A stretch of 20,909 nt of DNA, taken from positions 1 through 20,909 of the forward strand of contig JAOZFT010000034.1 of NCBI GenBank assembly GCA_027492035.1. The letters are read 5' to 3'. The translations under genes and the position numbers were made by a program. Below are positions 231 through 17,423 of this stretch, in pieces. The DNA comes from Thermoproteota archaeon (GTDB taxonomy: Archaea; Korarchaeota; JAOZGF01; JAOZFZ01). The notes under the pieces are model-generated. The model saw nothing but the letters and a program-made list of their open reading frames with translations. It was not told the origin of the DNA and searched no databases. Each line of letters starts with the position of its first letter. The first letter of the stretch is position 1.

Positions 231-384
231 CTTCCAACCACCAACACTACACAGACCCGCAAAGAACACATCAACAAGGAAAACAATGCGAACCCCTTTA
301 AAAAACAACAATCCAGAAAAAACAAAACATCAAACATACACTTAAAACAAGGAGTCTCGAAGAAAGAGAATTGAAAGAAAGAGT

Positions 385-1041: not shown

Positions 1042-1073
1042 ATCTAAAATTTTAGGAGGTTAAAGAGACAGTA

Positions 1074-1087
1074 AAAACATATGTTTT
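1074..1087. promoter_or_regulatory. Perfect 14-bp palindrome, candidate operator of the HTH-CARF gene
   Basis: AAAACATATGTTTT is a perfect inverted repeat starting 33 bases before the GTG of the HTH-CARF gene. It overlaps the edge of a TATA-like run (TTTAAATTTAAA, 1085-1096) read on the minus strand. An operator beside the TATA element is a usual place for an archaeal repressor. Binding is inferred. The rest of the divergent interval 1042-1304 holds a second TATA-like run (about 1202-1213, plus strand) before cas6. Confidence 0.4.
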
Positions 1088-1304
1088 AAATTTAAATTCC
1101 TCCGGTAAGGTTTCATCCTTCAGTCAAGTTTCACAGCTTTAAAGAGATTCCTCCCTCAAAAATAAGTAACACTAAACTTCAAATTAAAGTTTAAGGGGTA
1201 ATTTATTTATAGTTAAGGCTCCTTAATAAACAGAGAGAATAACCCTGGGAATAACTTCTCACAGTCTAGGGAAACATCACCTCAAAAAAAGGTTTAATGA
1301 GTAG

Positions 1305-2189: not shown

Positions 2190-2363
2190 CCACTAAACCC
2201 ACGCAGATACAAAACCTAACAAACAACCTATACCGCTTAAAAACCTTTAATCTCTTTTCACAGCCACTTTAAATATATGTTCCTTTAACTCCAATTCTCA
2301 AAAGCCTCTCCTAAACCATACCCACCTTTACCATAAGGGAGACTTAAGGGTGTAGCAGAGGCC

Positions 2364-2696
2364 ATGAGAAAACATAAAGAGTTAAATATAAGGTATTTAC
2401 TCTATTCCTTAATGGTGTATAGGAGTATGAATGAAAGGATAAAAACAAGCATTATAATCAACAAGAAACTATGGGATAGGTTTAGACATAAAATAAGTGT
2501 TGAAAAGAATTTAAAGAGCCTTAGCAAATCAGTTGAGGAGGCATTAGAGGAAGAGCTTAACGAGTTAATCATAGCTGAGGCCCTAGAAAAAATGATTTCA
2601 GCGAAGCCCACTACACTTGAAACAGTACCAGTTAAACTTAAAGTGAAGGGTAAAGCTGAAGAAGTAGTACGTGAGTTGAGGGGGTCCAGAACTTGA
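2364..2696 (+). CDS. Ribbon-helix-helix antitoxin (VapB type)
   Basis: A small protein with the core IKTSIIINKKLWDRFRHKIS: a beta strand followed by two amphipathic helices (LSKSVEEALEEELNELI), typical of ribbon-helix-helix antitoxins. The C-terminal tail is charged and would wrap the toxin. The DNA-binding strand begins near residue 26, so in-frame ATGs at 2412 or 2427 would give a more usual length. The ATG at 2364 is the longest option and none has a well-spaced Shine-Dalgarno sequence. Its stop overlaps the start of the PIN toxin gene (TTGA at 2693-2696), showing translational coupling. The pair is probably autoregulated. Family name VapB is assigned from fold and partner rather than close sequence recognition. 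Confidence 0.75.
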   Translation: MRKHKELNIRYLLYSLMVYRSMNERIKTSIIINKKLWDRFRHKISVEKNLKSLSKSVEEALEEELNELIIAEALEKMISAKPTTLETVPVKLKVKGKAEEVVRELRGSRT

Positions 2697-3139
2697 CTGT
2701 TTATCTTGATACAAGTGCCATAGTTAAGAGATACATCCTTGAACCTGGAAGCAAAGTTGTGAAGAAAGTTTATGTCAATGCACTTAACGGAGAAACAACT
2801 TTATCATTCTCTGCATGGAACATCGGTGAGGTTTTCGGGGTATTAGACAAATATCTTAGTAGAGGATGGCTAGATAAAAGGGGTTACGAAGTAGCATTAG
2901 TTTCATTTGTAAAGGAGACTATTAGGTTAATAAAGCTTAGATTAACTAAGATAATCCCGGTAAGAACAAGTCTGCTCGCAGAAACATGGAACCTGATAAA
3001 TAAATATCATATATATGAAGCTGACGCCATACAAATTACATCTGCAAAACATGCAGATTCAGAACAATTCCTTTCAGGAGACAAAAAACTTGTAGAAATA
3101 TCTAAGGCAGAGGGCCTCAACGCTCTTTATTTAAAGTGA
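2693..3139 (+). CDS. PIN-domain ribonuclease toxin (VapC type)
   Basis: A 148-residue single PIN domain with all the acidic residues expected for Mg-dependent RNA cleavage: Asp6 in YLDTSAIVKRY, Glu46 or so in NIGEVFG, Asp in YEADAIQI, and Asp in FLSGDKKLV. The start is TTG at 2693, overlapping the antitoxin stop by four bases, the normal VapBC layout. VapC toxins cut tRNA or rRNA when the antitoxin is lost. Placement between cas6 and cas4 fits the frequent presence of toxin-antitoxin pairs in archaeal CRISPR islands, where they may stabilise the locus; that role is inferred. Confidence 0.88.
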   Translation: MTVYLDTSAIVKRYILEPGSKVVKKVYVNALNGETTLSFSAWNIGEVFGVLDKYLSRGWLDKRGYEVALVSFVKETIRLIKLRLTKIIPVRTSLLAETWNLINKYHIYEADAIQITSAKHADSEQFLSGDKKLVEISKAEGLNALYLK

Positions 3140-3169
3140 GTTTAAATCCAACTAAAAGAAAACCTTTCT

Positions 3170-3515
3170 CTCCGAGGGAAAGAAGAGACAGAAAAAGAGA
3201 ATAAAGCCATCTACTTTTCAAAAGCAACCATGAGACAAACATGTCGCGGAAGCAGAGAAAGCAATTGCTGACAGTTTACATCTACCGAAACAGTACCCTA
3301 TTCAAGAAACATTTCTTACTTTAACCCACTTAAAACATGACCTAGAGAAAATCTTAAGTTATACGCTAAAGATGAAATCAGATGCCTTACTAAAGAGACC
3401 ATGTCTATTAGAGTTAAAGGGTATAGACATTTCTAGTGCGTCAAAAAGATTTAACGAAGAACATTATAAAATTAAATTTATTTCCCTTTCAAAAGGAGTT
3501 AAAATCAGGAAATAG
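3170..3515 (+). pseudogene. Decayed gene fragment of unknown family
   Basis: No intact gene occupies 3140-3653. Two linked open stretches look like broken coding sequence. One frame ends KENKAIYFSKATMRQ and is then continued in another frame from 3240 by 91 codons: HVAEAEKAIADSLHLPK, LTLTHLKHDLEKIL, SDALLKR, LELKGIDIS, to a TAG at 3513-3515. The 3' part is similar to a second fragment at 8506-8700. I do not recognise the family. Joining the two frames is an inference from their protein-like composition. The remainder (3553-3600) shows nothing definite. Confidence 0.4.
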
Positions 3516-3610
3516 AGACTGACGATCAACGAGTTGTTAGAATAACCCTGCAATGTCGATCCATCATTCAATTTGCCCTTTTCTTACACCATAAGTTTTA
3601 TCATAAAATA

Positions 3611-3620
3611 AATATATAGA
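3611..3620 (+). promoter_or_regulatory. TATA-like box before cas4
   Basis: The run ATAAATATATAGA centred near 3614 lies about 40 bases before the ATG at 3654. Transcription would begin roughly 10-15 bases before that ATG. Position and composition are the only evidence. Confidence 0.3.
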
Positions 3621-3653
3621 GGAAAACCTTCCATTAATACTCTAATCATCCAA

Positions 3654-4305
3654 ATGGGGATAAGACAAATCCAGGTGACACCTAACCAAAGTAGGGGGGT
3701 TTCTAATTTGAACCACTCAACCCATGAATTAGGAACCGTAACTGTGAATGACATAGTTCAACACTTTTACTGCCCCAGGAAAGTTTACTTCCTTAAAACA
3801 ATGCAGACCCCCTTCAAACCAAGGAAAAAGATGGTTTTCGGATTAGAAACCCAAGAAAAGGAAAAGAAAAGGGTTAAGGAAAGAATAGATGTATACGGAT
3901 TCGAAAAAAGAGAAGTTAAAGCTATGCACTTAAACGTTGAAGCATACTGTGAAGAAATAGGGTTGAAGGGGGAAAATAGATGTACTCCTGAAACTTAAAA
4001 GCGGAGAACACATCCCAGTGGAAATAAAATACACAGAGAAACCAATTGTCCAAAGACCCTACAAAAAACAAGTTATAGCTTATGCAACCCTAACAGATTG
4101 CAAATACAAAACAACCACTGAAAAAGCAATAATCTACTTCTCAAAACAGAAAATATCCAGGAAAATAAATGTTTCAAGGGAAGACAAAGAAACACTTAAA
4201 AGAGATATAAAGAAAATAAGGGAAATGCTTACAAATGAAAAACCACCAAGGAAAACATCAAAGGAGAAATGCAAATACTGCGAAGTCGAAAAATACTGTG
4301 TATAA
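3654..4305 (+). pseudogene. cas4: Cas4 exonuclease split by a single-base frameshift
   Basis: Two reading frames together make one Cas4. Frame one (3654-3998) holds VNDIVQHFYCPRKVYFLK, the N-terminal Cys motif of the Fe-S cluster. It stops just after a G5 run at 3968-3972. Removing one G joins GLKG directly to KIDVLLKLKSGEHIPVEIKY in the other frame, restoring the PD-(D/E)XK active site (Asp of KIDVLL, Glu and Lys of VEIK). This frame continues with KKQVIAYA (the Q-x-x-x-Y motif) and the C-terminal CKYCEVEKYC cluster ligands, ending at 4305. Cas4 trims prespacers during adaptation. As sequenced, the catalytic core is unreadable. It may be a true mutation, a homopolymer sequencing error, or less likely programmed frameshifting. 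The start at 3654 is uncertain, since the conserved domain begins near residue 28. Confidence 0.85.
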
Positions 4306-4612
4306 ATAACCTACATATAAAAATGAAACCCGGATAAATTAAAAACAACAAACCCCTCCCCCTTAACCGTCACTACTCCATGTGCTAAATAAACCATCCC
4401 CTTTTGCAGTTAAACTTTGAAATCTCTTATTTATCAAGGAACAGTTTTATTGTCAGATCCCTTTATAACCCGTAACGCTTTCTCAAATCAAGCTTTACAG
4501 CTCTTTATCCTTCCTTAAACCTCCATAATTTCCCCTAAATTTAGGCTAAGACCATTAAACTGAATATTTAAAGGACTAACATTCATCCATTTAAATTTAA
4601 ACCGTTAAACTA

Positions 4613-4629
4613 TTCCAGGAACCCTGGAA
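4613..4629. repeat. Perfect 7-bp inverted repeat with 3-bp centre
   Basis: TTCCAGG-AAC-CCTGGAA lies in the gene-free interval 4306-4855, about 20 bases after a TATA-like run (ATTTAAATTTAAA, around 4588-4602). It could be an operator or a small hairpin. No function can be assigned from sequence. Confidence 0.3.
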
Positions 4630-4681
4630 ACATGTTTCTCTTCTACCTCCTGCACAATACTATAAAGACAAGTTTAAAGAT

Positions 4682-4830
4682 GCAGCAACAGCCCCAAGGA
4701 AAAAAGTGAAAAGTTAAATAAGATATAAGTTTTACTCTATTCCTTAACGGTGTAAAAGACTAGGGCTTTTATGCTTCACACCTCCCCTCTAAACCCAACT
4801 GGACTTCAGATACACTTGAAACGTTAAGTG
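4682..4830 (+). pseudogene. Relic copy of the upstream antitoxin gene region
   Basis: Bases 4682-4757 closely follow 2352-2425, the leader and first codons of the ribbon-helix-helix antitoxin gene. A shared stretch is ACTCTATTCCTTAA, then C/T, then GGTGTA. The codons matching ATG 2364 and ATG 2412 are altered (CCATGAG becomes CCCCAAG; AATGG becomes AACGG). After an interval with no match, TACACTTGAAAC near 4811 recalls the same string near 2611 in the antitoxin gene. The core helices are missing. This looks like an internally deleted, dead duplicate. The rest of 4306-4681 contains no gene I can support. Confidence 0.45.
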
Positions 4831-4855
4831 AAATTAGGGTTTGTTGAGGATAACG

Positions 4856-5632
4856 ATGTCAAAAGGGAAAATAGTTAGTATAGCACTCTTCTATCTGCTT
4901 GCCTACCTAATTGCTTACATTGTAAACCCCCTTCTGTTTCCACATTTGGAAATGCCACACCCCTTTCCCAGCCTCCTATTGACTCATACACTTACACTGG
5001 TTGAAATACTTTTAATCGCCTATTTGGTTTTAAAGTTAAACAACGAAAACTGCACCCTCTCAACCTTCGGGATTAGAAAAGATAACTTAGGTAATAGTTT
5101 CTTGTGGGCAGCAGCTTTCTCAACACCTATCCCGCTGCTTTGGCTTATCGGCACAAAAATTGTAGGTTTTGAAACCATTTTAATCGCTGCCAAACCCTCA
5201 TGGGCTAATCCACCAATTTCGCTACAAGTTTTGATGTCTGCTATACTTTTATGGATTCTGGCAGGCATTGTAGCGTTCATGTTCTGGGAAGCCTTCCCAT
5301 ATGAACTCATGAAGGATTTCCCCCAGAAGCTTGCAACACCCTTAATAGCAGTTTTATGGACAGGTCTATACAACACCCCCTTGTTGACAGGGAAAATTGA
5401 CCCATTTGATGCCATATTCTTCGGATTTCTTTTTACATTGACTTATCATAAAGCAAGAAATAGCATGGGAATATTGATGGCGTACCTTCTAAACGAGAAT
5501 CCTCTATGGTGGGTAACAGCAGCAGTATTTGGATCAAATATTAAAATGGCATTCACAGTTTTCCTCATCTTTAGGATGTTAATATGCTCCATATCAACAT
5601 TTTGGGTGATTAAAACGAAAAATTCTAAGTAG
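4856..5632 (+). CDS. Multi-pass membrane protein, CPBP (Abi)-like
   Basis: About 258 residues with seven or so hydrophobic segments. The central region (FMFWEAFPYELMKDFP, AVLWTGLYNTPLL, DAIFFGFLFTLTYHKARN, MGILMAYLLNE) has the spacing of the CPBP intramembrane protease family: EExxxR helix, F-x-x-x-H helix, then a helix ending in an Asn. Key residues are degenerate: the paired glutamates are WEAFPYE, and the first expected His is replaced by Asn (LYNTP). Catalysis is therefore doubtful. The ATG at 4856 is chosen because GAGG (4846-4849) precedes it by six bases; an upstream in-frame TTG exists at 4841. It stands between the broken cas4 and the converging CARF-HEPN gene. CPBP proteins sometimes occur in defence islands. 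Family assignment is tentative. Confidence 0.5.
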   Translation: MSKGKIVSIALFYLLAYLIAYIVNPLLFPHLEMPHPFPSLLLTHTLTLVEILLIAYLVLKLNNENCTLSTFGIRKDNLGNSFLWAAAFSTPIPLLWLIGTKIVGFETILIAAKPSWANPPISLQVLMSAILLWILAGIVAFMFWEAFPYELMKDFPQKLATPLIAVLWTGLYNTPLLTGKIDPFDAIFFGFLFTLTYHKARNSMGILMAYLLNENPLWWVTAAVFGSNIKMAFTVFLIFRMLICSISTFWVIKTKNSK

Positions 5633-5758
5633 AGAAAGAAATAACACCATCACTCCACCCGACTCTACGGTGCTTTGCAACCCTGTAAAAAACCCTGTAA
5701 AAAACCTTTGCATAATTTCTAGGTTTATGGTTACCAAGGTTGTCAAAAAAAGTAACTT

Positions 5759-5946
5759 TCACCTTTCAGATATTTCTTCTACTAAATTAATCGCATCCAA
5801 GATGTGATTAGGAATATCATATCGCCTTTCTTCATCCGAATACTACCCTAAACTCTTTCTCAATTATTTCTATCAAATATGAAGTGATGGATGCCTTTGT
5901 AAGTAAATCTATCCACTAATTTATCTATTATTTCATACATTTTCAT
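5759..5946 (-). pseudogene. Small decayed coding fragment, unknown family
   Basis: Read leftward from an ATG at 5946, three short frames follow one another with protein-like content: MKMYEIIDKLVDRF, then TSYLIEIIEKEFRVVF, then DEERRYDIPNHILDAINLV to a TGA at 5759. Two frameshifts would join them into a protein of about 60 residues. It follows the CARF-HEPN gene in the same direction. I do not recognise it. The neighbouring 5633-5758 contains no gene; it has a short direct repeat of CCTGTAAAAAAC around 5681-5705. Confidence 0.3.
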
Positions 5947-5954
5947 TATATCTT

Positions 5955-6135
5955 GGAGTGGGGTTCAGAATTCCTGGCAACAGATTGGGGATATGTGAAG
6001 TTTACGGAGCGTAAACGGAGCAAATTTGGGCTAGCAAAGCGGGGGCCACATATCTATATGTTGTTCGAGTGCTATAACACCGTAGCGAAGTGGAGAGTTG
6101 CAGGTGACAGGCGAAGTTTCACGGATCTTCGGTTC
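5955..6135. other. Compositionally distinct island with short inverted repeats
   Basis: This stretch is clearly richer in G+C and in CpG than its surroundings. It holds GTTTAC-GGAGC-GTAAAC (a 6-bp stem with a 5-base loop) near 5999-6016 and ACATAT-CT-ATATGT near 6048-6061. A 70-codon plus-strand frame (5953-6165, TTG start) and a minus-strand frame overlap here, but neither is recognisable and both intrude on the 3' end of the CARF-HEPN gene. It may be a structured RNA, a remnant of foreign DNA, or nothing. Confidence 0.25.
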
Positions 6136-6136
6136 A

Positions 6137-7408
6137 TCAACTTTTCTCTTGTGAGAATGACCTAAATATTCTTGTAAATTTTCTAAGTTTATTTTTGAAA
6201 TCTGCAGGAGAATGGTAGTTCTGCTCTCTCCAACCACTATGGTTTATGTCATTCCTGTAATCTATAATTTCATGCCACAAATTTAGAATTCGAGCAGGTA
6301 TTTTTTCATATCTATTATTCAACATTACTTCTGCAATCTCTCTATAATCTGTGTCTTCTCCCTTTCTCGGTTTTTTCAGTCTATTACTTCCAATAATATT
6401 TACTATCACATAATTAACAATAGTTTCCCTTAAAATCGTAAATCCTTGCTGAATTAAATCATTTTCTATACACCAAGAAGCAACTTCTAGTCCACAAGTT
6501 ACATTGTTATCGATTTGCATATTGCTAAATCTCCCTTTTATTTTCCTAAATAATGGTTTAAATTGCCTCAATTTTTCCAGTTCTTTCTCTGCTTCTAACA
6601 ATGAATCTAAAATCTTTTTAATGTTGGATTTAAAATCAGGAGCACGACATGTTGAAACGTTCTGTGAAAAAGCTTTCAGGGAACTAATAAGCTTTCGAAG
6701 CCCTCCTCCAACCTCACCCCTAGTTTCTGCAAGTAAAGGTTTCAATTCCTCTATTCCAAGCTCACTTATCATTTCTGCATTTCCAGTTTTTAAGAATCTT
6801 TCAACAGCTACTGTCCAGTCGAATAAGCTTGCAAACGGTGTGAGATTGAATACAGGTATTACTCTTTCTTTTAAAGGCATTCTTTTAACTTTATTTGGGG
6901 AACCTAAAGCCTCCATTGCACCATAAACAATTTGGTTTATCTTCACATTTTTTAAGAATTTGACATAATTTAAAGCTACAAGTGTCAACATTGGGAGAGA
7001 ACGAAAACTATGAGTGATATCAAAAATTAAGACATCCTTTTCACCGATATTATCATTTATTTTTTCAAATATCTCCCACAATTCCTCTTCATTTCTTCCT
7101 TCTGGTATTTCAACTTCTTTTAAAGTAATGTTCAATTTCAGTCTTTCTTTAGCCCCTTCCAATCGTTCTTTTAACCCCTTTTCAAAGTTTGCACCCTCAC
7201 ATTCATTTTTACCTAGCCAATTCCTTCTTTTAGATTCTTTAGTCAGAAAAATAACTATCTGGTCGCCATCTTTCCACTCTTTACAGAAAAATTCAAGTAA
7301 GGCTTCTTGGATAAACTGACATGGTTTCTGAGACTTTTCATTATTGTAGATATAATAAGCCTCGATGTATCTCGTGGGACCTATAAAGCTCAATAATTTA
7401 TAGCTCAT
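6137..7408 (-). CDS. csx2: CARF-HEPN ribonuclease, TM1812/Csx2 branch of Csx1/Csm6 family
   Basis: A 423-residue type III accessory effector. The N-terminal CARF domain (about 1-185) starts KLLSFIGPTRY and carries DVLIFDITHSFRSLPM at 125-140, the signature of the TM1812 family. Then comes a helical linker with a charged coil (about 255-290). The C-terminal HEPN domain ends with RNDINHSG: Arg385 and His390 form the R-x4-H ribonuclease motif. Family members are activated by cyclic oligoadenylate made by Cas10, then cut RNA without sequence specificity, causing dormancy or death of infected cells. The ATG at 7408 overlaps the end of csx3 by 11 bases, so ribonuclease and signal-degrading enzyme are co-translated. 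The exact ring size sensed is not visible in the sequence; the csx3 partner suggests cA4. Confidence 0.85.
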   Translation of the reverse strand: MSYKLLSFIGPTRYIEAYYIYNNEKSQKPCQFIQEALLEFFCKEWKDGDQIVIFLTKESKRRNWLGKNECEGANFEKGLKERLEGAKERLKLNITLKEVEIPEGRNEEELWEIFEKINDNIGEKDVLIFDITHSFRSLPMLTLVALNYVKFLKNVKINQIVYGAMEALGSPNKVKRMPLKERVIPVFNLTPFASLFDWTVAVERFLKTGNAEMISELGIEELKPLLAETRGEVGGGLRKLISSLKAFSQNVSTCRAPDFKSNIKKILDSLLEAEKELEKLRQFKPLFRKIKGRFSNMQIDNNVTCGLEVASWCIENDLIQQGFTILRETIVNYVIVNIIGSNRLKKPRKGEDTDYREIAEVMLNNRYEKIPARILNLWHEIIDYRNDINHSGWREQNYHSPADFKNKLRKFTRIFRSFSQEKS

Positions 7409-7694
7409 CGATCTTCACCTTTATAATCTCCCCTACTTCCAAGCTTTGTCCATGCGATTCTACCACTATAGCACCACTAACTCTTGGATCATAGGTTGCT
7501 ATAAATTTTGTGGGATGGTAATAATGGCAAAGATAACAGTAAAGCCATATAGGACCACGACCACTCAGTATTATTCCTTTTGTTCCATCAACCTTTGGTG
7601 GTTTTAGTTTTTGCAAAATTTCTGGTGATATACTACTTTCTAATTCAAAATGAACCACTGTAAACTCTTCTCTCTCTATCACTTTGAATCTCAT
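7398..7694 (-). CDS. csx3: Csx3, cyclic tetra-adenylate ring nuclease (Crn3)
   Basis: A 98-residue protein whose core IILSGRGPIWLYCYLCHYYH, TKFIATYDPR and AIVVESHG matches Csx3 across almost its whole length. From the ATG at 7694, His60, Asp69 and Arg71 fall where the active-site residues of the Archaeoglobus protein lie. Csx3 degrades cA4, sandwiching it between dimers, and switches off CARF effectors; it was first described as a Mn-dependent RNA 3' exonuclease. The ATG at 7694 is chosen over a longer TTG start at 7709 because GGAGG stands eight bases before it and the protein then begins MRFKVI, as in relatives. The TGA of the upstream csx1 relic overlaps this ATG (ATGA), a trace of former coupling. 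Confidence 0.92.
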   Translation of the reverse strand: MRFKVIEREEFTVVHFELESSISPEILQKLKPPKVDGTKGIILSGRGPIWLYCYLCHYYHPTKFIATYDPRVSGAIVVESHGQSLEVGEIIKVKIDEL

Positions 7695-8505
7695 TTCAAT
7701 CTCCTCCAACAGAAATTTTCAATTGTTTCCATCTTATCCTCACAATACTTTAACAACACTTTGCCATTACCCTTTTCGATTTCCACTACATTTCTTTCAA
7801 AAGCTGAATAAGTCAAGAAATCTCTTGCATTAGGTTCTCCTATCTCTTTTCCCAATACATCATTGTATATTTACCAGTTTCTGATATCTTTTCCTTCTAC
7901 ATCTTTCTCTAAGTATAAACATCAGTGCTAATTCTCATTTTAAGTCTTTCATCAAATATGAATAAATTATCTCTCAAATTCTTAATTTCGTCGAGAGTTA
8001 CCTCTGATTTCACAAAGAAATGAGTTTTTGATTCTTTAACAATATTGAAATTATATAGGTGAATATATGCTTTCAACTCTTTTCTAAATTTTACCTTTTT
8101 TCACAACTTTTAACTACCTTGATTTTTTACCTAATATATTTCTCATACAAATTTAAGACTTCAGAAATTATTTTCTCCAGCTTTTCTGGATAGAACCTAA
8201 AAAGAGCAATAGGCAACCCATTATATAATGCTCCAATAAAGGGTTGAAAGTTCTTTGTTATCTATTTCCCTGACACTTTTCAGCTTGTGTTCGAAAAGTT
8301 CTCTTCTTCCTTTATCGCCCAAGTTTTATAGGTTCCAGTGGTCTTTCTTGAATAATCTTTCGAGTAGAAGGAGTGAGATTGGGCAGAGTGTCTTCAACAA
8401 TGCTAATAAAAAATTTTTCTACAACCCTTGACCAAGAACCCGCCTTATCAGTGCTTTAAATTGTACTTTCTTAAAAATAGAAAGCATTTCCACTATTTCT
8501 TTAAT
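7691..8505 (-). pseudogene. csx1: Decayed csx1-like CARF-HEPN gene
   Basis: The roughly 1 kb between csx3 and the nuclease gene holds six protein-like pieces in shifting frames, in order: WSRVVEKFFISIVEDTLPNL (about 8430); GRRELFEHKLKSVREIDNKE; FIGALYNGLPIALFRFYPEK to a TAA near 8126; KVKFRKELKAYIHLYNFNIV to RISTDVYT and a stop near 7906; LEKDVEGKDIRNW with an in-frame TAA; and NDVLGKEIGEPNARDFLTYS with ERNVVEIEKGNGKVLLKY to a TGA at 7691-7693. The last piece matches the C-terminal HEPN end of Csx1 (MJ1666 type), normally R-N-F-x-A-H. Here it is RDFLTY, the His codon replaced by TAT (7808-7810). At least three frameshifts and three stops rule out function. Family call rests on the C-terminal motif and the position beside csx3. 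Confidence 0.6.
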
Positions 8506-8700
8506 AAGCTATGTAGTTAAGCCGATGCTTTACTAAAGAGACTAGGTTATCCGTTAGAATTGAAGGATATGGATATCTCTACTTGCATTAAAAAAGATTT
8601 AACGAAGAACGTTAGAAAATAATCCATTTTCCCCTTCAAAAGGATTTTAAAAACAGGAAATAGAGACTACCGGTCAACGAGGTACTAGAATAATGCTGAG
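8506..8700 (+). pseudogene. Second copy of the fragment seen at 3381-3552
   Basis: This reads SYVVKADALLKRLGYPLELK then DMDISTCIKKDLTKNVRK to a TAA, and is followed by noncoding-looking bases. It parallels 3366-3552 at both DNA and protein level (SDALLKR..LELKGIDIS). DNA similarity carries on past the stop into CAGGAAATAGAGACT and ATCAACGAG/GTCAACGAG. It abuts the 5' side of the csx1 relic. It is the 3' end of an unknown gene, without a body. Confidence 0.4.
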
Positions 8701-8765
8701 TAAGAAGCCAAGAATATGGAGTTAATAAAAGTCGTCGGTTTCGGTGTTTTGGTAACAGAAAAGGA

Positions 8766-10049
8766 TTATCTTAACATGTCCTCAAGATGCTCGCTTAAAT
8801 TTTTAACATTACATATTAAATCTCTTCTAGCTGCCTCCTTACATGTTACTAAAATACCACCTATACCTAATTCAGGAACTTTTTCAAGGTCTTTCTTTAG
8901 AGAATCGAGTTTTTTATTAAATCTTTTTGCGTCCTTCTCTTCAGCTGTTATTTTACACTCCAGCAAAATCAATTTGCGTTGTGGTTTTACAACTAGTGAT
9001 AAAACATCATATTCTTCCCCTTTGATCATAGTGTTGTGGGAAATGAAGTAATCTACACCTCTTTCAGAAAAGATTTTCCTCAGCAATAAATAAACATAAA
9101 TCTCAAATAAAGTGCCTATGTTATTTTCCTTAGTGTATTCCTTATCTATGAGAAACACCTTTTTCATTTCCTTTATATCCCTTTGAGGATGGTTACTTAA
9201 GTTTTCTTCTATGATCCTCCGTGATATACGATGATATTTTACCTTTCCGAAATATGAAAAGCCACACTTATCTAGATCCTTTTCTCTTTCGCTAAATAAC
9301 ACGGTTAAATCACGGGCAGCTTTTCCGAAACTTTTAATTTTTAATGGCTGAAAATCTTTATCATTCCGTTTTAAAGACTCTTCATTCCCAATATCCATTT
9401 TTGTCAACTTCGAAAACAAAACAGACCCAATAGACGTTTCCATTAGCTTTTCTAGTAAATTCAATACTTTACTTTTCTTCAATAAATATTGAAATATAGA
9501 ATATCTCTCAGGGAATAAAAACCCTTTCTCAGAGTCTTCATAGAAGTGAGGATGCACGAATGAAATGAGTGAGATTGAAGAAGTATAATCACAAAGCTCA
9601 ATTAGTGCACTGTAAATATCACTATTGTTAGAAAAAAGAGGTCTGTCTCTATCTAAGAAAGCAGTTATGAAAAAAGATAAATATGGAATACATAATAAGT
9701 TCTTTAAGTAGCTAGACATGCTGTATCCATCAAGCTTTAAAATTTCTATGTCTTTCCCTGACACAGTAATTTTAATGGTAGAAGGTATTTTCAACTGGGT
9801 TTTTGGAATCGAAGAAGTAATCACATAACGAAGAGCCTCTGATGCATAACTTAAGATGGAATCCTCAAGAGCCTCTATGCCATCTGTTAAAAAAGACATT
9901 TCCTCGGAGATTGATTGTTCAATATACCCTTCTAATAATTTCTCTGAGAAGGAATCACCGAGTTTCAGTTCGTTATCTTTTAATGATCTCACAATGTTTT
10001 TAAGCAGCTTTATAATAATTTCGGCCTCACTTTGAGATATGTAAAGCAA
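8766..10049 (-). CDS. PD-(D/E)XK nuclease of unrecognised type, last gene of type III operon
   Basis: A 427-residue protein. The C-terminal part (about 305-427) has the restriction-endonuclease fold pattern: Glu316 in GTLFEIYVYLLLRKIF, Asp348 in KGEEYDVLSLVV, and Glu364-Cys-Lys366 in KLILLECKI, followed by a helix and a strand. The N-terminal 300 residues are mostly helical with a hydrophobic stretch near 118-132 (LCIPYLSFFITAFL). I see no CARF motif in them, unlike Can1 or Can2/Card1, which pair CARF with this nuclease fold. The start is TTG at 10049, with GAGG nine bases before it, 12 bases after the preceding RAMP gene. Operon membership implies a role with the type III complex, perhaps target cleavage or an ancillary effector. 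Nuclease activity is inferred from motif only. Confidence 0.7.
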   Translation of the reverse strand: MLYISQSEAEIIIKLLKNIVRSLKDNELKLGDSFSEKLLEGYIEQSISEEMSFLTDGIEALEDSILSYASEALRYVITSSIPKTQLKIPSTIKITVSGKDIEILKLDGYSMSSYLKNLLCIPYLSFFITAFLDRDRPLFSNNSDIYSALIELCDYTSSISLISFVHPHFYEDSEKGFLFPERYSIFQYLLKKSKVLNLLEKLMETSIGSVLFSKLTKMDIGNEESLKRNDKDFQPLKIKSFGKAARDLTVLFSEREKDLDKCGFSYFGKVKYHRISRRIIEENLSNHPQRDIKEMKKVFLIDKEYTKENNIGTLFEIYVYLLLRKIFSERGVDYFISHNTMIKGEEYDVLSLVVKPQRKLILLECKITAEEKDAKRFNKKLDSLKKDLEKVPELGIGGILVTCKEAARRDLICNVKNLSEHLEDMLR

Positions 10050-10061: not shown

Positions 10062-10940
10062 CTACTTCATTTTTTCTATGTAACTTCGTACATCCAAAGT
10101 ATCATAATGGCCTTCTTTAAGTAGTAAAGCATATATGTTTTCTTTTACAGCGGCATCGCTCTCTGGATCAGGATTAAGCTTTAAAATTAATGCTCTCGAA
10201 TTTTCCTCATCTAATGTCAGTAATCCGAAGCCTTTGCTTTTAAGCCCCCCGACATATAAACCATTCGTTAAGATGTATTCTAACACCTTTGCAAACAATC
10301 TTGCTTCGCTTGAGCCATTATCTAAGTTGTCAATCACCACTCTGGTTTCAAAGTATAAACCTTCCTGTGGAGGAATCATTTCAGCTGAAAACAATCTTTC
10401 CCCTTCAACAACACCTATTTTCCTTGACATAGAAGTTGATGTATAAGTTGTTACTTTTGGCTTCACTATCGGTATTAAATCATAGAACAAAAGCTTGCCA
10501 GCTAACTTCCTCGATCCGAAAAGTAGACAAATTGGACAATTCATTGAAAAATAAATCTCCATTTTATCGCTTTCGCTTAGCTCATTCAGTTGATCTTCGG
10601 CGTAAAGTTTGCTAGCTAACTCAGAGGCAGCACTTAAGTATTTCTCATCTATTTTTGACGGCAAATGTTCATCTTTCCTGTGAAATCTGACTACTTCATC
10701 TACTTCGCTGCTTTTAAATTGCATGGATTTAGCTAAATAGGTTGCCAGCGACCTTAAAGCCCCTTTAAATGAGTTAGAGGGTATTATTGGAACTAAATCA
10801 TCTCCAACTCGAAGCCTTACAATTTGTTTAAGCGCCCCTTCCTGTCCATTCCCTACGTGAAGGGGGGTTTCAGGTTTTAGGAATAACTTAAAGATTGCTC
10901 TACTCACCAATTTTTCAAGGTGATTGACCTTACTGAACAA
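10062..10940 (-). CDS. Csm3-like RAMP (Cas7 group), catalytic Asp replaced
   Basis: A 292-residue backbone subunit of the type III complex. Visible RAMP features are LKPETPLHVGNGQ, the glycine-rich PSNSFKGALRS, the CPICLLFGSRKLAG cysteine pair of Csm3-type subunits, SMSRKIGVVEGERLF, and the C-terminal glycine loop GGLKSKGFGLLTL. In Csm3 the segment before PGSS reads G-A-I-D-N-P-I-I-R; here it is GALKQIVR, so Lys38 stands where the RNA-cutting Asp belongs. This subunit is predicted not to cleave. The TTG at 10940 overlaps csx10 by 11 bases; in-frame TTG/GTG codons 30-33 bases further in are alternatives, since the domain begins near residue 13. Confidence 0.8.
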   Translation of the reverse strand: MFSKVNHLEKLVSRAIFKLFLKPETPLHVGNGQEGALKQIVRLRVGDDLVPIIPSNSFKGALRSLATYLAKSMQFKSSEVDEVVRFHRKDEHLPSKIDEKYLSAASELASKLYAEDQLNELSESDKMEIYFSMNCPICLLFGSRKLAGKLLFYDLIPIVKPKVTTYTSTSMSRKIGVVEGERLFSAEMIPPQEGLYFETRVVIDNLDNGSSEARLFAKVLEYILTNGLYVGGLKSKGFGLLTLDEENSRALILKLNPDPESDAAVKENIYALLLKEGHYDTLDVRSYIEKMK

Positions 10941-12018
10941 AGGGAAACACCTCTAAAATGTTTAAGCCTACGTTTGAGAAGGAACCGAAACCCAACAGTT
11001 CCCTTTCAGCAATTTTCGTCGGGTTTAAGTCATTTTCTGTTTTGAAGAAATATAATGAACCTATTTCAGCTGCTTCAATAGATACTTTCGGCAGATTTGA
11101 CAGTAAACTAAACCCTGAAACTCTCGTCGTTTCTGTTAACACGTAATTTAGGTCCTTATATATAAGTAAAGGTTCAGCTTTTATTCCCATTCTACCAAGA
11201 TCTATGGTTGGGGTTGAAGTTAATTTCTCATTTAAAAAACTTAAGGAGAAAACCGGAGAAATCGCAATCAAAATAATTTTTCCATCAAAAAGTTCAAGGG
11301 TCTTTTTAATCCTATCGCTTTCTCTCTTTATGTAGCCTTTTTTTTCGCTGATCTTCACCTCTACATGGCCATATCCTCTTGAAATCGCTCCTCCGATGAA
11401 CAGATCAATTATTTCCTCATCTAAAAATCCAAGTTCTTCCATTCGATTTGAAAGATCTATTATTAACCCCTTAAATATTGACCCTGGAGATACCGCCACG
11501 TATCCATAAAGCATTTTGATCTCAGCTCCCTTCACTACTCTGTTGATACCTATGGCCTCTGTTTTAGAGTAAGTTGTTTCATGTTTAATGTAACTATTTC
11601 CCTCCATAAACACAAGTGCCCCTCCGATACTTTTCGTGGAGAAGATATGTTTCCCTTTTCGGCATATATATGGAGGGTTATAGGTTTCAAAGTTGAATGA
11701 AGCTATCCTTTTAGGCTCCTCAAAACTCTTAGGTACAAATATCTCCCCGCAAACTTTGCATTCATACATAAAGGGATGGGCTGGCTTTGCGGTTTCGTCG
11801 TTCACTACTGGATATGCTGGGTGGAAAAATAGTTTTGGATCCTTAAGTTCCCTTTTCACCAAGTCTTTTTTCCCTTCCCTCCAAGGTTTAGCTAGAAATG
11901 CTCCTCTAAGGGTTAAACCAGGGATTTCCTGTCTACTATGCACTAGGAGGTTCCCGGTTTTAGGGCCCGAGTGAACTAAAGGTGTCTTAACTTCAATCAT
12001 GGTTTCATATATCTTCAA
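10930..12018 (-). CDS. csx10: Csx10-like RAMP (type III-D Cas5-type subunit)
   Basis: A 362-residue protein with two RAMP-like halves. The first has EIPGLTLRGAFLAKPW, FHPAYPVV, a four-ligand zinc-like site (CKVCGEIFVPK and CRKGKH), SKTEAIGINRVVKGAEI, and the glycine loop GGAISRGYGHVEV. The second ends LLGFGSFSNVGLNILEV, another glycine loop. This double-loop layout with an inserted Cys motif fits Csx10, which caps the crRNA 5' handle in type III-D complexes. The TTG at 12018 has GGAGGAG six to seven bases upstream and overlaps the previous gene by 14 bases; an ATG at 12000 is possible. The subtype call of this window rests largely on this gene, and the match is by architecture, not by a long identical motif. 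Confidence 0.7.
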   Translation of the reverse strand: MKIYETMIEVKTPLVHSGPKTGNLLVHSRQEIPGLTLRGAFLAKPWREGKKDLVKRELKDPKLFFHPAYPVVNDETAKPAHPFMYECKVCGEIFVPKSFEEPKRIASFNFETYNPPYICRKGKHIFSTKSIGGALVFMEGNSYIKHETTYSKTEAIGINRVVKGAEIKMLYGYVAVSPGSIFKGLIIDLSNRMEELGFLDEEIIDLFIGGAISRGYGHVEVKISEKKGYIKRESDRIKKTLELFDGKIILIAISPVFSLSFLNEKLTSTPTIDLGRMGIKAEPLLIYKDLNYVLTETTRVSGFSLLSNLPKVSIEAAEIGSLYFFKTENDLNPTKIAERELLGFGSFSNVGLNILEVFPFVQ

Positions 12019-12646
12019 GGCTTAGCTCCTCCCATATCGCCTTTACGAGAGGGTCTCTTAAAACTTCCCTTGGAACCTTACTCTTCTCTTTCACAATTTT
12101 AACCCCTACAGCTCCATTTCTACCAATCCTTTCGTAATTTAACTCTGCAATTGAAGCCATTAATGCTCTGAACTCCTCAATATTCAAATTAAAACCCTTT
12201 AAATCTACATAAAACCTCTTTTTAATTGATAGGTACTCAGCGGTGAAAAGCCCCATCTCTTCGGCTATTTTAGTAGCATCATCTATTTTAACATGGGTAA
12301 GCGTATTTGTTTCTTCATCTAACAATGCTGAGCCAACAAAAATTTTACTTTCAGGTCCATGAGGCTTCCCGAAGAGATTTGTAACAATATCTAACTTACT
12401 GCCTATTTTATTGGGGTAAACAGTTTCTGTTACCCTTCTGTAACCCAATAAATTAGAAATCCTTATTAAACTAGTTCTAAGAACCCCTTTAATAGTAGAC
12501 CCTGGAACAAGAAGCTTAGATCCCCCTTTTCCTCTCACCCTTAAGAAGGGGGCGTCAGATTTTATTTTAACAGATAAACCACCAGCCCCGACTATAAATT
12601 TTTTCTTAGTTTCTAATCTTAACCTAAGTTCTACATTAAAGTTCAC
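12005..12646 (-). CDS. Csm3-like RAMP (Cas7 group), short, no Cys pair
   Basis: A 213-residue subunit. It shows LLVPGSTIKGVLRTSLIRI, NLFGKP, KIFVGSALLD, HVKIDDATKIAEEM and a final glycine loop GRNGAVGVKIV. KSDAPFLRV at 29-37 corresponds to the I-D-N-P-I-I-R segment of Csm3, so Asp31 is the probable RNA-cleaving residue. The cysteine pair found before LFG in the other Csm3-type subunits is missing (IVTNLFG). The start is GTG at 12646; its G is shared with the cas10 TAG, so the genes overlap by one base. Confidence 0.8.
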   Translation of the reverse strand: MNFNVELRLRLETKKKFIVGAGGLSVKIKSDAPFLRVRGKGGSKLLVPGSTIKGVLRTSLIRISNLLGYRRVTETVYPNKIGSKLDIVTNLFGKPHGPESKIFVGSALLDEETNTLTHVKIDDATKIAEEMGLFTAEYLSIKKRFYVDLKGFNLNIEEFRALMASIAELNYERIGRNGAVGVKIVKEKSKVPREVLRDPLVKAIWEELSLEDI

Positions 12647-15288
12647 TATCGCCCACCTTCAAGAACCTCAATCAATTGATAAAGGTCATATAAGTTGAAA
12701 CGTGGTTTATCAGATGGTATATAAAGTTCATCTAGTATTTCCTTAATTTCCCTTGCATCAACCTCTGTTCTTGACTCTCTGAGAGCGAAAATAACTCTGA
12801 TTTTTAAATCCGAGTCCCCTAATATATTCACTTGAAGCACTTTATTTAACAGGTTACGTAGTTTCCTTAATTTATTTAGCGAATTAGTTGAAATAACCCA
12901 AGAAGCAAACTCTTCCATTGATAAGTTTCCAAGGGACAAACCATTTGAGTAAATTGTCCTGATTAACCTTAGAATAGACCTTGGGTCTTTAGTATTTGAA
13001 ATCGTGTAGGGAAATTTCTCCTGGGAACTGATGCCCTCCTTTGAAAGTTGTTCGAGAACTGATCTAAGCGCTTCCCTTGTCATTGTTCCACCGTCAGCCG
13101 AGAGGAAAGATAAGCAACCTCTAAATTTACTACTGGGTTTCTCCAATGCAACGCTGTGATTTTCCCTGTAGTCCAGTGATCGAGCCCCCTTCTTAGCTGT
13201 TCTAAGTAGGTAATCAGCTGATTCATAGAGTTGAATTATTGGATGCTTAGGCTTAGCTACTGCGATTCCAAAGGAAAGAGTGGCTTTACATCCCATATGA
13301 AGATAAAATTCGTTTGCTAGGTGTAATGCAAAAGGGATAGCTAATGGTGAGGGCATCATTACTGCTCCATCGTCTCCTCCAAGGTACATTAAACCCAAGG
13401 ATAATCTGCAGAAATCATCTTCATTTTTACCTTTTATCATCTCTAGGAAATCTATGAAGGCCTGTTTCACTCCGTAATCAATACGAACACTTCTCTCAAA
13501 AGCATCTGTTATGGATATGCTTGAAGCCATTATTTCACTCATCAGGTTACCATCAAACTTAATGAGTGCTAGGCTTCTATACTTTCCTACTTTACCATTG
13601 CACAGTTCATCTAATGGATGACCTGCAATGTACTCCAAAATATGATCTCTAAGCTTTTCCCATTCAACCTTGATTATACTCTTCAGCTTTTTAGTCGTTA
13701 CTCTAGCTTTAAAGTGAATGCCGTCACCAACTTCCAGCTTCCTCTTACAAGTCGTGCAGATGTATTTTTCTCTCCTATAGTCCACAGCATATTTTTGTTC
13801 ACATAGTAAGCATAATTGAAAAATATTTGGGCTTACATCTCCAAGGAGACTTGTAAGTTTCTCTTTTAATATAGATTCATCGATTTCCCTGCTAATTAAC
13901 GAAAAATCTCTATACAAAGGGGAGAAACCAGTAGTGATGGATATGTTAAAGCATCTTTGGAAATGCTCTTTTAACCTTTGTATTTCTGAAACTTTGTTTG
14001 AAGGCATTATTAGTGTTAAGTTACCTCCTCCAAAATATAAAATTGTTTCTGCAGGTAATGTAAATTGATTCATCAAGTATAAGGGTATTGCCACATAACC
14101 TATGAAGTCAATTATTCTACTAGCTCCATTCATCGCCCTTATGTCATTACTTTTAATATATGCTTGAATCTTCCTCAAATCTAACCTTACAACTGAAATT
14201 TCATCCGTTATCAATGCTTTCCTTTTTTTCTCTTCATTTACAGAAATAAGTGACTCTTTAATCACAGGGTTCTCAGGGGAAATCTTTGATGCGTTCATAC
14301 AGAAATTCAAGGTTAATTTCTTTATTAATTCATCACCTACAAATTTCTCCCAGAATTTCCAGCTTGTGAAGGCTTTATAGAGTTTCTCATCCTCTCTAAC
14401 CATTGTTTCCCCGCAAAACTCATTTACACGGTTCAACAATTCATTTTTAAGGCTTTCATCTAGAAGTTTAGGGAGCAACCATATAACTCTGTCAATACCG
14501 CTTGCAAGTCGATCTGATTTTTCAAGTATATTACGGAAATATGTTAATTCTGATATTTCTTTTTCTTCGATGATGGATGAAGATTTATTAATGATCTCCT
14601 CTGCTTCGCTTCCGGATTCCACATATTTCTTAAACAATTCATGTACTTTTCTAGCTGATATTGATTTGTGTCTACGCCAGTCTAGGAATTTACCTAGGTC
14701 ATGAAAGATCGACGTCACTCTAACGATGGCTAAATTGTATGTATCCTCGCAACCGTATTCCCCAATATATAGACTAGAAGCCATCGCTGAAGTTGTAAGC
14801 ATGTGAATTAAAAGTGAAGATGTGTTGGAGGCAGGTCTAGTATCAGCAGGAAAGCTTAAAATCCTTAAAATCAGGGAATGACGAGGCTGAAACAACTTTT
14901 CATCCGAAATCATAATTCTATTTAAGATGTCCTTGTATCGTATAAGTGACTCCCAAGAATAATAAGGCATGTCTTCCCTTCTCAGCTTTCCTTTGTATTT
15001 AAAGTAAAAATACAGCGCGTCCATGGGAGAAAGAATGATATCAGGCAGTGGATCCAAATAGAGTTGAGATTTAAGGTAAAGGATAAATGAATCTAAAAAA
15101 TTATTAACGTCCAGCGAGGTCTTCAGTTTTTTCCCTCCGTTATCTGTGTAGTTCCTAACAACTTCCTCTATTAGTTCACAGAAAGCATTAAGCAGCGATT
15201 TTCCATCATCAGAGGATAATTCCTCTATGTAAACCGGGTTATTATTCTTCCCTCTCTTAGGAATAATGTATCCCCTTACGATATTCAT
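12646..15288 (-). CDS. cas10: Cas10, type III large subunit with HD and GGDD domains
   Basis: An 880-residue protein. The HD nuclease region includes SIFHDLGKF (His196-Asp197) with further histidines 162, 207 and 216; HD domains in Cas10 cut single-stranded DNA. The first palm domain (about 365-470) contains YFGGGNLTLIMP, a GGGN in place of GGDD, as is common. A treble-clef-like zinc site follows: CLLC (493-496) and CTTC (511-514). The second palm has LALIKFDGN (Asp579) and MYLGGDDGAVMM with GGDD at 637-640, so cyclic oligoadenylate synthesis should be intact. A helical C-terminal domain (about 740-880) resembles the Cas11-like D4 domain. The ATG at 15288 overlaps the preceding gene by ATGA. 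Partners are the flanking RAMPs; signal receivers lie at 6137-7694 and probably 385-1041. Confidence 0.93.
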   Translation of the reverse strand: MNIVRGYIIPKRGKNNNPVYIEELSSDDGKSLLNAFCELIEEVVRNYTDNGGKKLKTSLDVNNFLDSFILYLKSQLYLDPLPDIILSPMDALYFYFKYKGKLRREDMPYYSWESLIRYKDILNRIMISDEKLFQPRHSLILRILSFPADTRPASNTSSLLIHMLTTSAMASSLYIGEYGCEDTYNLAIVRVTSIFHDLGKFLDWRRHKSISARKVHELFKKYVESGSEAEEIINKSSSIIEEKEISELTYFRNILEKSDRLASGIDRVIWLLPKLLDESLKNELLNRVNEFCGETMVREDEKLYKAFTSWKFWEKFVGDELIKKLTLNFCMNASKISPENPVIKESLISVNEEKKRKALITDEISVVRLDLRKIQAYIKSNDIRAMNGASRIIDFIGYVAIPLYLMNQFTLPAETILYFGGGNLTLIMPSNKVSEIQRLKEHFQRCFNISITTGFSPLYRDFSLISREIDESILKEKLTSLLGDVSPNIFQLCLLCEQKYAVDYRREKYICTTCKRKLEVGDGIHFKARVTTKKLKSIIKVEWEKLRDHILEYIAGHPLDELCNGKVGKYRSLALIKFDGNLMSEIMASSISITDAFERSVRIDYGVKQAFIDFLEMIKGKNEDDFCRLSLGLMYLGGDDGAVMMPSPLAIPFALHLANEFYLHMGCKATLSFGIAVAKPKHPIIQLYESADYLLRTAKKGARSLDYRENHSVALEKPSSKFRGCLSFLSADGGTMTREALRSVLEQLSKEGISSQEKFPYTISNTKDPRSILRLIRTIYSNGLSLGNLSMEEFASWVISTNSLNKLRKLRNLLNKVLQVNILGDSDLKIRVIFALRESRTEVDAREIKEILDELYIPSDKPRFNLYDLYQLIEVLEGGR

Positions 15289-15605
15289 ATTCTTTCCATC
15301 AACTCCTTAAATTTAACTCTTCTTTCACTCAGCTCGACATGAGTGAAATATTCAGAGAATCTTTGGGCTGTTTCCGAGCTAATCTCGTTAAAAAGATAAT
15401 TTCCGTTGATTTTTAGCCATTCAAATCCCTTTAATAAGCCTTTAATCAACGTAAACGCAAACCCTAAAACCCCGAGGTCATTGACCCTACCTATCTCCGC
15501 TTTGGCAATTCTCCACGTTGTCAAGTCATTGGATACTATCAGGATTAATCCCGGTTTCAACTGAGTTAATTTCTCTTTTAACTCCTGAACAGTTAACTTG
15601 TTCAT
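15285..15605 (-). CDS. 106-residue orphan between RAMP and cas10
   Basis: Not recognised. It is a compact alpha/beta protein: a helix (VQELKEKLTQL), a strand (GLILIVSND), a glycine-rich hydrophobic stretch (DLGVLGFAFTLIKGLLKGFE), and a charged helical end (HVELSERRVKFKELMERI). There are no Cys pairs or nuclease motifs. It overlaps the upstream RAMP gene and the downstream cas10 gene by four bases each (ATGA), so it should be made in step with the complex. Type III-D loci often carry a small extra gene, csx19, of unknown or structural role; this could be its counterpart by position, but I see no sequence proof. Confidence 0.75.
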   Translation of the reverse strand: MNKLTVQELKEKLTQLKPGLILIVSNDLTTWRIAKAEIGRVNDLGVLGFAFTLIKGLLKGFEWLKINGNYLFNEISSETAQRFSEYFTHVELSERRVKFKELMERI

Positions 15606-16588
15606 ATTTCAACAATCCCCTTTTCAAAATCTATATGTTCACCATACTTACTTTTCATTAATATCCCCTTGACTTTTTCAATAAGCTCGGCAGTACCCCT
15701 CATCTCTTTCATCTCACCGTTCTCAAAGCTATATCCTTTGAAGTTTTTTAAGGTAAATTTCAGCAATCCAAACATGTACTTTTTTCTAAAACGTCTCGTT
15801 GTCACTTTAGGATTATAGACATATTTAAAGGAGCCGATTAGTATGGGGCTCCCCGAGTAAAGTTCAAATCCAAGAAAGAGAATAGATAAATCCAGTAAAC
15901 TCATGTTCAAACAATTAACGGATAATTTAAATTTGGATCCAGGCTTAACAGCTTCTATACCCTCTAACTCTATTAATTTCTCGGTGTTACCTGAAACCAT
16001 GTAGGCGTCTGAAAAATAAACCCTAGACGCTAAGTTTGGGGAGCCGAATAAATCGCAAACTATACAAACATTTGGGGATCTGCAAACACCACTTCTCATA
16101 TATCTAGTTTCCTCTCCCCAGAACTTCAAGTGATTTACTGCCCTTGCTTTGTCGAAAAACAAGGATTCAACTGAGTAACAAGAGTAAGAATATAGTTTTC
16201 CACTTATTTCAAATGGTTTAAATTTATACTCAACCCTAGATCTAACGGCTCCTTTAATAGAAGACCCAGGTATGAAATATTTGCCTTTTCTAGAAGGAAA
16301 AGACTTGGAAGGAGCTATCTTTTTCACTAGGAATTCCTTTCCAAGCCTTTTAAGTTCATCAATATTTAAATGTTCTTTTCTTTTAAGGATCCTAGATTTA
16401 TATGCCTTTATCCTTGATAAAAGCTTATGCGGCTCCTTTAATTCTTCTGGGACAGCTCCACTGAAAAGGTAACTGTTTGAGGGAGTGTAAGCTTCAAAGT
16501 TTAATATGACATTGAAGTGATCGGGTAAGACATGATCTCTACCTGTATATTTATCCTTTTTAACCTCTACTCTTAACTCTTTTGACAT
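15602..16588 (-). CDS. RAMP protein, Csm5/Cas7-like with insertion
   Basis: A 328-residue RAMP. It has GKYFIPGSSIKGAVRSRVEY, the cysteine pair in CIVCDLFGSPNLASRVYFSD, AVKPGSKFKLSVNCL, and a C-terminal glycine region GSPILIGSFKYVY. A long basic insertion (about 50-105: ELKEPHKLLSRIKAYKSRIL and following) separates the first strand from PGSS. No Asp sits at the catalytic position. Size, insertion and lack of the Asp suggest a capping subunit such as Csm5 or an insertion-bearing Csm3. The ATG at 16588 overlaps the previous gene by 29 bases. Confident as a RAMP, less so for which one. Confidence 0.75.
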   Translation of the reverse strand: MSKELRVEVKKDKYTGRDHVLPDHFNVILNFEAYTPSNSYLFSGAVPEELKEPHKLLSRIKAYKSRILKRKEHLNIDELKRLGKEFLVKKIAPSKSFPSRKGKYFIPGSSIKGAVRSRVEYKFKPFEISGKLYSYSCYSVESLFFDKARAVNHLKFWGEETRYMRSGVCRSPNVCIVCDLFGSPNLASRVYFSDAYMVSGNTEKLIELEGIEAVKPGSKFKLSVNCLNMSLLDLSILFLGFELYSGSPILIGSFKYVYNPKVTTRRFRKKYMFGLLKFTLKNFKGYSFENGEMKEMRGTAELIEKVKGILMKSKYGEHIDFEKGIVEI

Positions 16589-17423
16589 AGTCCCACCATG
16601 CTCTTTTACACTCGTTTAGAAAAGCAGATGGATCCTTAGCATTTACCTTTATTTCTTCGTCGTCTTCGTCCAGTCCTGGAAGAGAACTAAGCTCCCTTAA
16701 ATCCTTCCTATCTCCATCAGTGAAGACATATCCACTTAAGGAAGCAGCATCAACCTTAACTCTTCCGAAACCCCTTGATTTAAAGCCTCCAATCTTTAAA
16801 AAACCGCTGTTGATTTGATCAAGAATAACGGAGAACAGCCCCATCCCATAGTTAGGTATATTTCTGAACTCTACAAAACCGTTAAATACACTTCCAGGCG
16901 TGACGAATTCAACTGTGTACAGGGCCCCTCGTCTAACCGTGCCACTTCTCCTGTTAATGGCAATACCTGTTTTGACTCCTCTCTCAGGCAATGTTTCCCA
17001 TGGGGGATATGCATCCCCGAAAAATATATGGCTTGCATAACTGGAGGAACCATACATTTTACATATTAAACAGTATTTTTTGAGATGTTCAACGAGCTCG
17101 TCAAGTTCATTACTTCTCATTAACATTTGCAATTTATTGTTATTGTCATTTTTCTCCCTACAGCCTTCACCCGCCATGCAAATGCCTTTGATACCTGAAG
17201 ACCTGGCAATGAACTCTGAAGAAGATCTAAAAACACCTTTAAGGCTGCTTCCAGGTATAAACGGAACTTCAGCTTCATTTATTTTAATGGTTAAAACTTG
17301 TAGATCTATAGGAGAAGTGGGCTTCTTAGCTTTGCCAGCTCCTATCCTCAAAGGTGATAATGCCTTAAATCTAAGGTTTATCTTCAGATCTCTATAAACT
17401 ACATGATGTACAAACCAGCTCAA
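16560..17423 (-). CDS. csm3: Csm3-like RAMP (Cas7 group) with acidic tail
   Basis: A 287-residue backbone subunit: SPLRIGAGKAKKPTSPIDLQ with Asp40 in the catalytic position, VPFIPGSSLKGVFRSSSEFI, CLICKMYGSSSYASHIFFGD, TGIAINRRSGTVRRGALY, TPGSVFNGFVEF, and the glycine loop GGFKSRGFGRVKV. This is the standard order of Csm3. An acidic stretch (LPGLDEDDEEIKV) and a basic C-terminus follow the fold. The start is TTG at 17423, overlapping the previous stop by TTGA. It should bind crRNA in six-base steps and cut target RNA. Confidence 0.87.
   Translation of the reverse strand: MSWFVHHVVYRDLKINLRFKALSPLRIGAGKAKKPTSPIDLQVLTIKINEAEVPFIPGSSLKGVFRSSSEFIARSSGIKGICMAGEGCREKNDNNNKLQMLMRSNELDELVEHLKKYCLICKMYGSSSYASHIFFGDAYPPWETLPERGVKTGIAINRRSGTVRRGALYTVEFVTPGSVFNGFVEFRNIPNYGMGLFSVILDQINSGFLKIGGFKSRGFGRVKVDAASLSGYVFTDGDRKDLRELSSLPGLDEDDEEIKVNAKDPSAFLNECKRAWWDYVKRVKSRG

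Follow-up and report, generated by a model that had tools for sequence, protein, structure and literature searches.

The protein encoded by the last gene of a type III-D CRISPR effector operon in the window, i.e., the 20,909-nt stretch of archaeal DNA that was analyzed and that represents an entire contig of its assembly, is very probably a III-D accessory protein of the PD-(D/E)XK nuclease fold. This protein, here referred to as NUC, combines a C-terminal nuclease-type domain with an N-terminal part in which we detected no CARF domain, and similarly built proteins recur beside other archaeal III-D operons. Our main explanation, a tentative one that we doubt slightly more than we believe, is that NUC works with the III-D complex rather than through a CARF domain of its own.

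The III-D effector operon and its last gene

Family matches identified cas10, a csx10-type cas5, several cas7 and a cas11, the complete set of a III-D effector operon, in the order (18544 to 8766, minus strand) cas11, cas7, cas7, cas7, 106-aa gene, cas10, cas7, cas5 (csx10), cas7 and NUC, with cas6 lying apart. The features of this region are:

18152-18544 (-): cas11/csm2 small subunit (PADLOC Csm2 (III-D), 2.7e-12)
17420-18145 (-): cas7-like RAMP, from its position and similarity to other cas7 proteins of related operons
16560-17423 (-): cas7-like RAMP (family match)
15602-16588 (-): cas7-like RAMP (family match)
15285-15605 (-): 106-aa gene without family match, flanked by cas7 and cas10; the closest relatives have counterparts
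12646-15288 (-): cas10, 880 aa, with HD motifs H162 and H196-D197 and GGDD at 637-640
12005-12646 (-): cas7-like RAMP (family match)
10930-12018 (-): cas5/csx10 (PADLOC Cas5_IIId, 5e-15)
10062-10940 (-): cas7-like RAMP in the SSO1432 position, immediately upstream of NUC (Pfam RAMPs, 1.9e-20)
8766-10049 (-): NUC, 427 aa, final gene of the operon; PD-(D/E)XK-type domain at the C-terminus, preceded by a predicted helical part
9150-10049 (-): NUC residues 1-300, no family match, predicted mostly helical (AlphaFold) with one beta hairpin at about residues 90-105
8769-9149 (-): NUC residues 301-427, PD-(D/E)XK-type domain
9102-9104, 9006-9008, 8958-8960 and 8952-8954 (-): NUC active-site codons for E316, D348, E364 and K366, respectively
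7398-7709 (-): csx3 ring nuclease (Pfam, NCBIfam, PADLOC)
6137-7408 (-): csx1/csx2-type CARF-HEPN effector of a separate cassette (NCBIfam, PADLOC)

The NUC reading frame starts with TTG, and a run of 427 stop-free codons has a chance probability of about 4e-14 at 36% GC. About 10 nt upstream of the TTG is a GAGG motif that directly follows or overlaps the stop of the preceding cas7, and the gap of 12 nt between the two genes suggests that NUC is co-transcribed with the effector operon. The initial annotation, which had reported a 427-residue protein as the last gene of a type III-D-like effector operon and a csx2-csx3 cassette set apart from it, was borne out by the family matches, the latter as a csx1(csx2-like)-csx3 pair. 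For the 106-aa gene, a homologue was found in a related locus (L015, E 6e-8; loci are given as L numbers throughout), and ORFs matching it in size and position are present in L070 and L027.

Three further features were observed in the window. By eye, a Cas4-like protein extends over two frames on the plus strand (3654-4305; 3654-3998 and 4018-4305), probably as a broken gene, and a VapBC-like toxin-antitoxin pair lies at 2364-3139 (+), encoding a 110-aa antitoxin-like and a 148-aa PIN-like protein. In addition, the stretches 3361-3550 and 8504-8698 are 73-78% identical and are probably the ends of a gene that is present as two decayed copies; one of the stretches sits just downstream of NUC.

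The C-terminal half of NUC contains E316, D348 and E364-C-K366 in the order typical of PD-(D/E)XK enzymes, at exactly the positions first reported. Since E/D/ExK motifs alone arise by chance, the assignment of a nuclease fold relies on profile matches that go beyond the motif: residues 311-390 match Pfam Card1_endonuc (PF09002) with E 0.0043 and 17 bits, below the curated cut-off of 26.4, and PADLOC returned CARF_PDDEXK (8.4e-6), Csx1 (1.1e-5) and PD_DExK (1.7e-5), together covering residues 248-425. For this domain the first AlphaFold model, of low confidence, gives the succession helix-strand-strand-strand-helix-strand. A clear match to a known Cas or CARF nuclease family, which would have spoken against a new kind of nuclease, was not obtained, the only matches being sub-threshold ones to the nuclease half of Card1-like proteins; likewise, no match to the NucC family model was found in Pfam, NCBIfam or PADLOC.

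Residues 1-300, which the initial annotation could not place and in which it saw no CARF domain, gave no meaningful match in the same three libraries, and in particular none to a CARF, SAVED or RAMP model. These libraries do recognize other proteins of the window, including CARF proteins: Csx1 scored strongly in PADLOC and NCBIfam, Csx3 scored strongly as well, and a helix-turn-helix (HTH)-CARF protein at 385-1041 scored weakly in Pfam. The latter (minus strand, 218 aa) has an HTH-like start and a match to PF23400 CARF_Card1 (E 3.3e-4), from which it is likely a regulator responding to cyclic oligoadenylate (cOA). AlphaFold models of NUC reached a pLDDT of 34.6 from one sequence and 37.4 from seven, with almost all values below 50 in residues 1-300, so that only secondary structure is usable there; both low-confidence models are mostly helical in this part, with the single beta hairpin.

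Relatives of NUC in archaeal III-D loci

Single-protein searches with NUC found no relative in genome_contigs, viral_contigs or plasmids, none in 101 relatives, 29 genomes of the phylum and 28 of another phylum, and none among PDB sequences, where profile searches were also empty. Profile A3 gave chance-like matches only, besides the window NUC itself, viral scans with profiles A2 and A3 and a plasmid search with P0008 returned nothing, profile A6 matched none of 394 archaeal relatives, which included no positive control for this profile, and hhalign between small alignments yielded nothing usable. Relatives were instead recognized by walking outward from Cas10, which led to about 30 related operons.

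The Cas10 of the window belongs to a clade with a support of 100/100. Within this clade, L027 encodes a NUC homologue that overlaps the last cas7 by 14 nt, retains E-D-ECK and matches window residues 261-367 by BLASTP (E 1e-4); the score of the two C-terminal parts was reached by none of 1000 shuffles (9.4 SD), whereas for residues 1-300 and the N-terminal part of the L027 protein 516 of 1000 shuffles scored as well. In L027 the III-D operon (44-10045) is split into two convergent halves, the cas10 half on the plus and the cas11 half on the minus strand, and despite this rearrangement NUC remains on the cas10-cas7-csx10-cas7 half. In L070 of the same clade, a different 165-aa gene fills the NUC slot, and the third member (L015/L026) is cut by the contig end.

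Beyond this clade, about 13 proteins of NUC-like layout are encoded either 3' of archaeal III-D operons or divergently beside them. The slot 3' of the last cas7 is occupied in L029, L030, L031, L032, L068, L103, L104 and L105, while in L036, L084, L085, L071 and L072 (the last one frameshifted) the gene lies divergently beside cas11; one of these two positions is thus found in the window, in L027 and in 13 other loci. The same-slot proteins are 335-434 aa long, look helical in their N-terminal part and carry the motif E...ExD...Ex[K/T] in the C-terminal one. In L033, the position that the nuclease gene takes in relatives, 3' of the last cas7, belongs to a Csx1 CARF-HEPN gene (15385-16887). Leave-one-out profiles recognized 11 members of the wider set above shuffles but not the window NUC and the L027 protein, while a C-terminal profile of the eleven ranked the window NUC above its neighbours, a score that 4 of 3000 shuffles equalled. 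The sequence similarity of the window NUC to the wider set is therefore weak (p about 0.001); by these profile comparisons, a common origin within the superfamily is likely, though not proven.

Among the 14 members that could be read, the catalytic lysine is replaced by threonine or serine in 11 (serine in L036) and kept only in the window, L027 and L085, where the full E-D-ExK set is retained. Across the wider set, ExD and the subsequent E/D are conserved, and ExT members as a rule have an arginine or lysine a few residues after the threonine.

Linkage to III-D loci was recurrent in this set rather than lying mostly outside type III. Profile A4, built from five members, matched ten of the 398 genomes searched, all from one archaeal phylum; five of the ten are its own members. 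Of the other five matches, four lie in III-D loci: G539, G551 and G552 each have a III-D operon whose final cas7 is followed directly on the 3' side by the gene, and in G411 the copy next to such an operon is degraded. The fifth, in G649, is short (60 residues, E 3.5e-4) and in no III-D locus.

The sequence subtypes A, B and C follow the Cas10 tree, on which they required 2 changes versus 4.7 in shuffles, only 1 of 1000 of which was as low, whereas the presence or absence of NUC was not found to track this tree (8 changes versus 9.6 in shuffles). L103-L105, which were included in the subtype test, had been found via the nuclease and hence raise the count of carriers artificially; when they are left out, the gene is present in 12 of 25 operons. 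This pattern is that of an accessory gene with frequent loss or gain that nevertheless evolves together with its complex.

All NUC-bearing Cas10s keep GGDD, and all except that of L103 keep the HD motif. We therefore rejected the idea that NUC replaces a lost Cas10 HD domain, as the window and almost every other NUC-bearing operon retain an intact HD. Of the 31 Cas10s compared, from about 30 III-D operons, 28 have an intact HD motif, while the available text of a survey reports an HD domain in only 3% of III-D Cas10s (PMC11229360), from which this archaeal Cas10 branch seems to differ.

Possible roles of NUC

With few exceptions, accessory nucleases of type III systems are driven by a cyclic-nucleotide sensor domain. 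In our main explanation, NUC would be an accessory nuclease of an SsoCsm-type III-D CRISPR system, whose C-terminal PD-(D/E)XK domain would cut nucleic acid, either DNA or RNA, and whose CARF-less, mostly helical N-terminal part would couple it to the effector complex by docking or assembly. NUC would then act together with target recognition by the complex and not via cOA bound to a sensor of its own. The placement of the gene among those of the complex suggests such cooperation, and separate CARF proteins in several NUC-bearing loci (window, L027, L029 and L032) would make NUC dispensable as a cOA sensor. We infer all three steps, catalysis, docking on the complex and activation in cis. The window NUC is probably catalytically active, and for its physical binding to the complex we see the arguments as almost balanced.

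Against this explanation stands the divergent orientation in five loci, which is odd for a complex subunit; together with the patchy distribution, it would suit an accessory effector equally well. Further points against it are the N-terminal part, which shows no detectable homology even to the L027 protein, the weak similarity of the window NUC to the wider set, and SsoCsm, whose complex forms without such a gene (PMC9945777). The earlier proposal of a 'complex-linked or new effector nuclease' holds with regard to the place in the effector operon, the recurrent III-D linkage, the PD-(D/E)XK half and the lack of a detectable CARF domain, while the five divergent genes resemble those of an accessory effector more than of a core subunit. 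The stricter version, in which archaeal III-D complexes contain NUC as an integral nuclease subunit that target binding itself sets off, is doubtful; most of the family would then rely on a variant ExT active site.

It is unlikely that NUC is a cyclic-oligonucleotide-activated effector like Can2/Card1, with a sensor in residues 1-300 that is too diverged or novel to be recognized. The GGDD of Cas10, the proximity of the nuclease half to Card1-type domains and the effector-like divergent orientation in some relatives would agree with this, but three libraries that detect CARF in the same window found neither CARF nor SAVED, cOA sensing is already covered by Csx1, and the low-confidence prediction of helices plus one hairpin does not resemble a Rossmann-like alternation of strands and helices. 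A split Card1, with NUC as the nuclease half and the HTH-CARF protein at 385-1041 as the CARF half, is improbable. Its PF23400 match and the similar HTH-CARF protein in L032 (11593-12324), 1.3 kb from the NUC of that locus, point in this direction, yet 7.7 kb separate the two genes in the window, the CARF families differ in other NUC hosts (CARF7 in L027, CARF5 in L029), and the HTH-CARF protein is more simply a regulator.

The loss of the lysine in most readable members, with ExD and the next E/D conserved, would suit a mainly nucleic-acid-binding or structural factor of the complex, in which catalysis is secondary and decayed in most relatives. We regard this as quite unlikely, since the full motif persists in three members, the threonine itself is conserved with a basic residue within a few positions, and threonine need not mean inactivity; active PD-(D/E)XK enzymes without the lysine exist, such as BamHI and BglII. 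Least probable of all is a role in trimming crRNA 3' ends or in handling spacers, in which case the nuclease would be encoded with the effector genes by chance. NUC is indeed an operon-linked nuclease, and to our knowledge the enzymes trimming type III crRNAs are mostly unknown, but a processing step that is required would hardly be distributed so patchily over related operons, and cas6 is separate.

A recurrent, operon-linked nuclease that lacks a sensor and accompanies complexes with both HD and cyclase motifs would suggest that type III CRISPR in archaea has another output, possibly independent of signals; a built-in subunit, if true, would provide these complexes with a third one in addition to HD nuclease activity and the synthesis of cOA. 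Furthermore, the operon linkage of NUC yields a testable prediction on the composition of the III-D complex.

Comparison with known systems

A NUC-like system is not described in the available portions of the surveys PMC11229360, PMC12669027, PMC9704534 and PMC10910872, which is not proof of absence. Hoikkala et al. present four new effector types besides the known ones, without a NUC layout among them in the text available (PMC11229360), and the accessible part of the 2025 classification mentions PD-(D/E)XK additions in I-E3 and in type III derivatives that lack arrays, not in III-D (PMC12669027). One of its figure legends, on new class 1 systems including type III variants, explains a PD-(D/E)XK label, so that an earlier, unnamed sighting of a NUC-like protein is possible. 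As far as these partial sources reach, NUC looks like an undescribed accessory part of an archaeal III-D immune system.

Several described nucleases share single traits with NUC. Variant I-E3, as presented in the same partial source, has a PD-(D/E)XK nuclease fused to Cas11, sometimes beside an intact main nuclease (PMC12669027), and thus likewise adds such a nuclease to a class 1 effector module; however, it is a type I system with a fusion, whereas NUC is a separate gene of a type III-D system. The nucleases associated with HRAMP and ARAMP are also of the PD-(D/E)XK type and linked to type III-derived modules, but these modules, by the description available, lack arrays and are only type III-like, which sets them apart from NUC (PMC12669027). 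NucC resembles NUC as a PD-(D/E)XK nuclease of type III loci without CARF, yet according to the accessible text it is activated by cA3 and hexameric (PMC9704534), and its model does not match NUC. Can2/Card1 are the best library matches of NUC, which resembles them in a putative Card1-type domain at its C-terminus, in the order of the motifs and in the type III setting; in contrast to them, NUC has no detectable CARF, its gene lies inside the effector operon, and its Pfam match stays below the curated cut-off. The operon itself corresponds to that of SsoCsm, the III-D complex of S. solfataricus (SSO1424-1432) with five cas7-like genes and a single copy each of cas11, cas5 and cas10, which lists no nuclease gene and whose complex forms without one (PMC9945777). 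Its gene order, cas11-cas7-cas7-cas7-cas10-cas7-cas5-cas7, is that of the window minus NUC and the 106-aa gene (PMC9945777).
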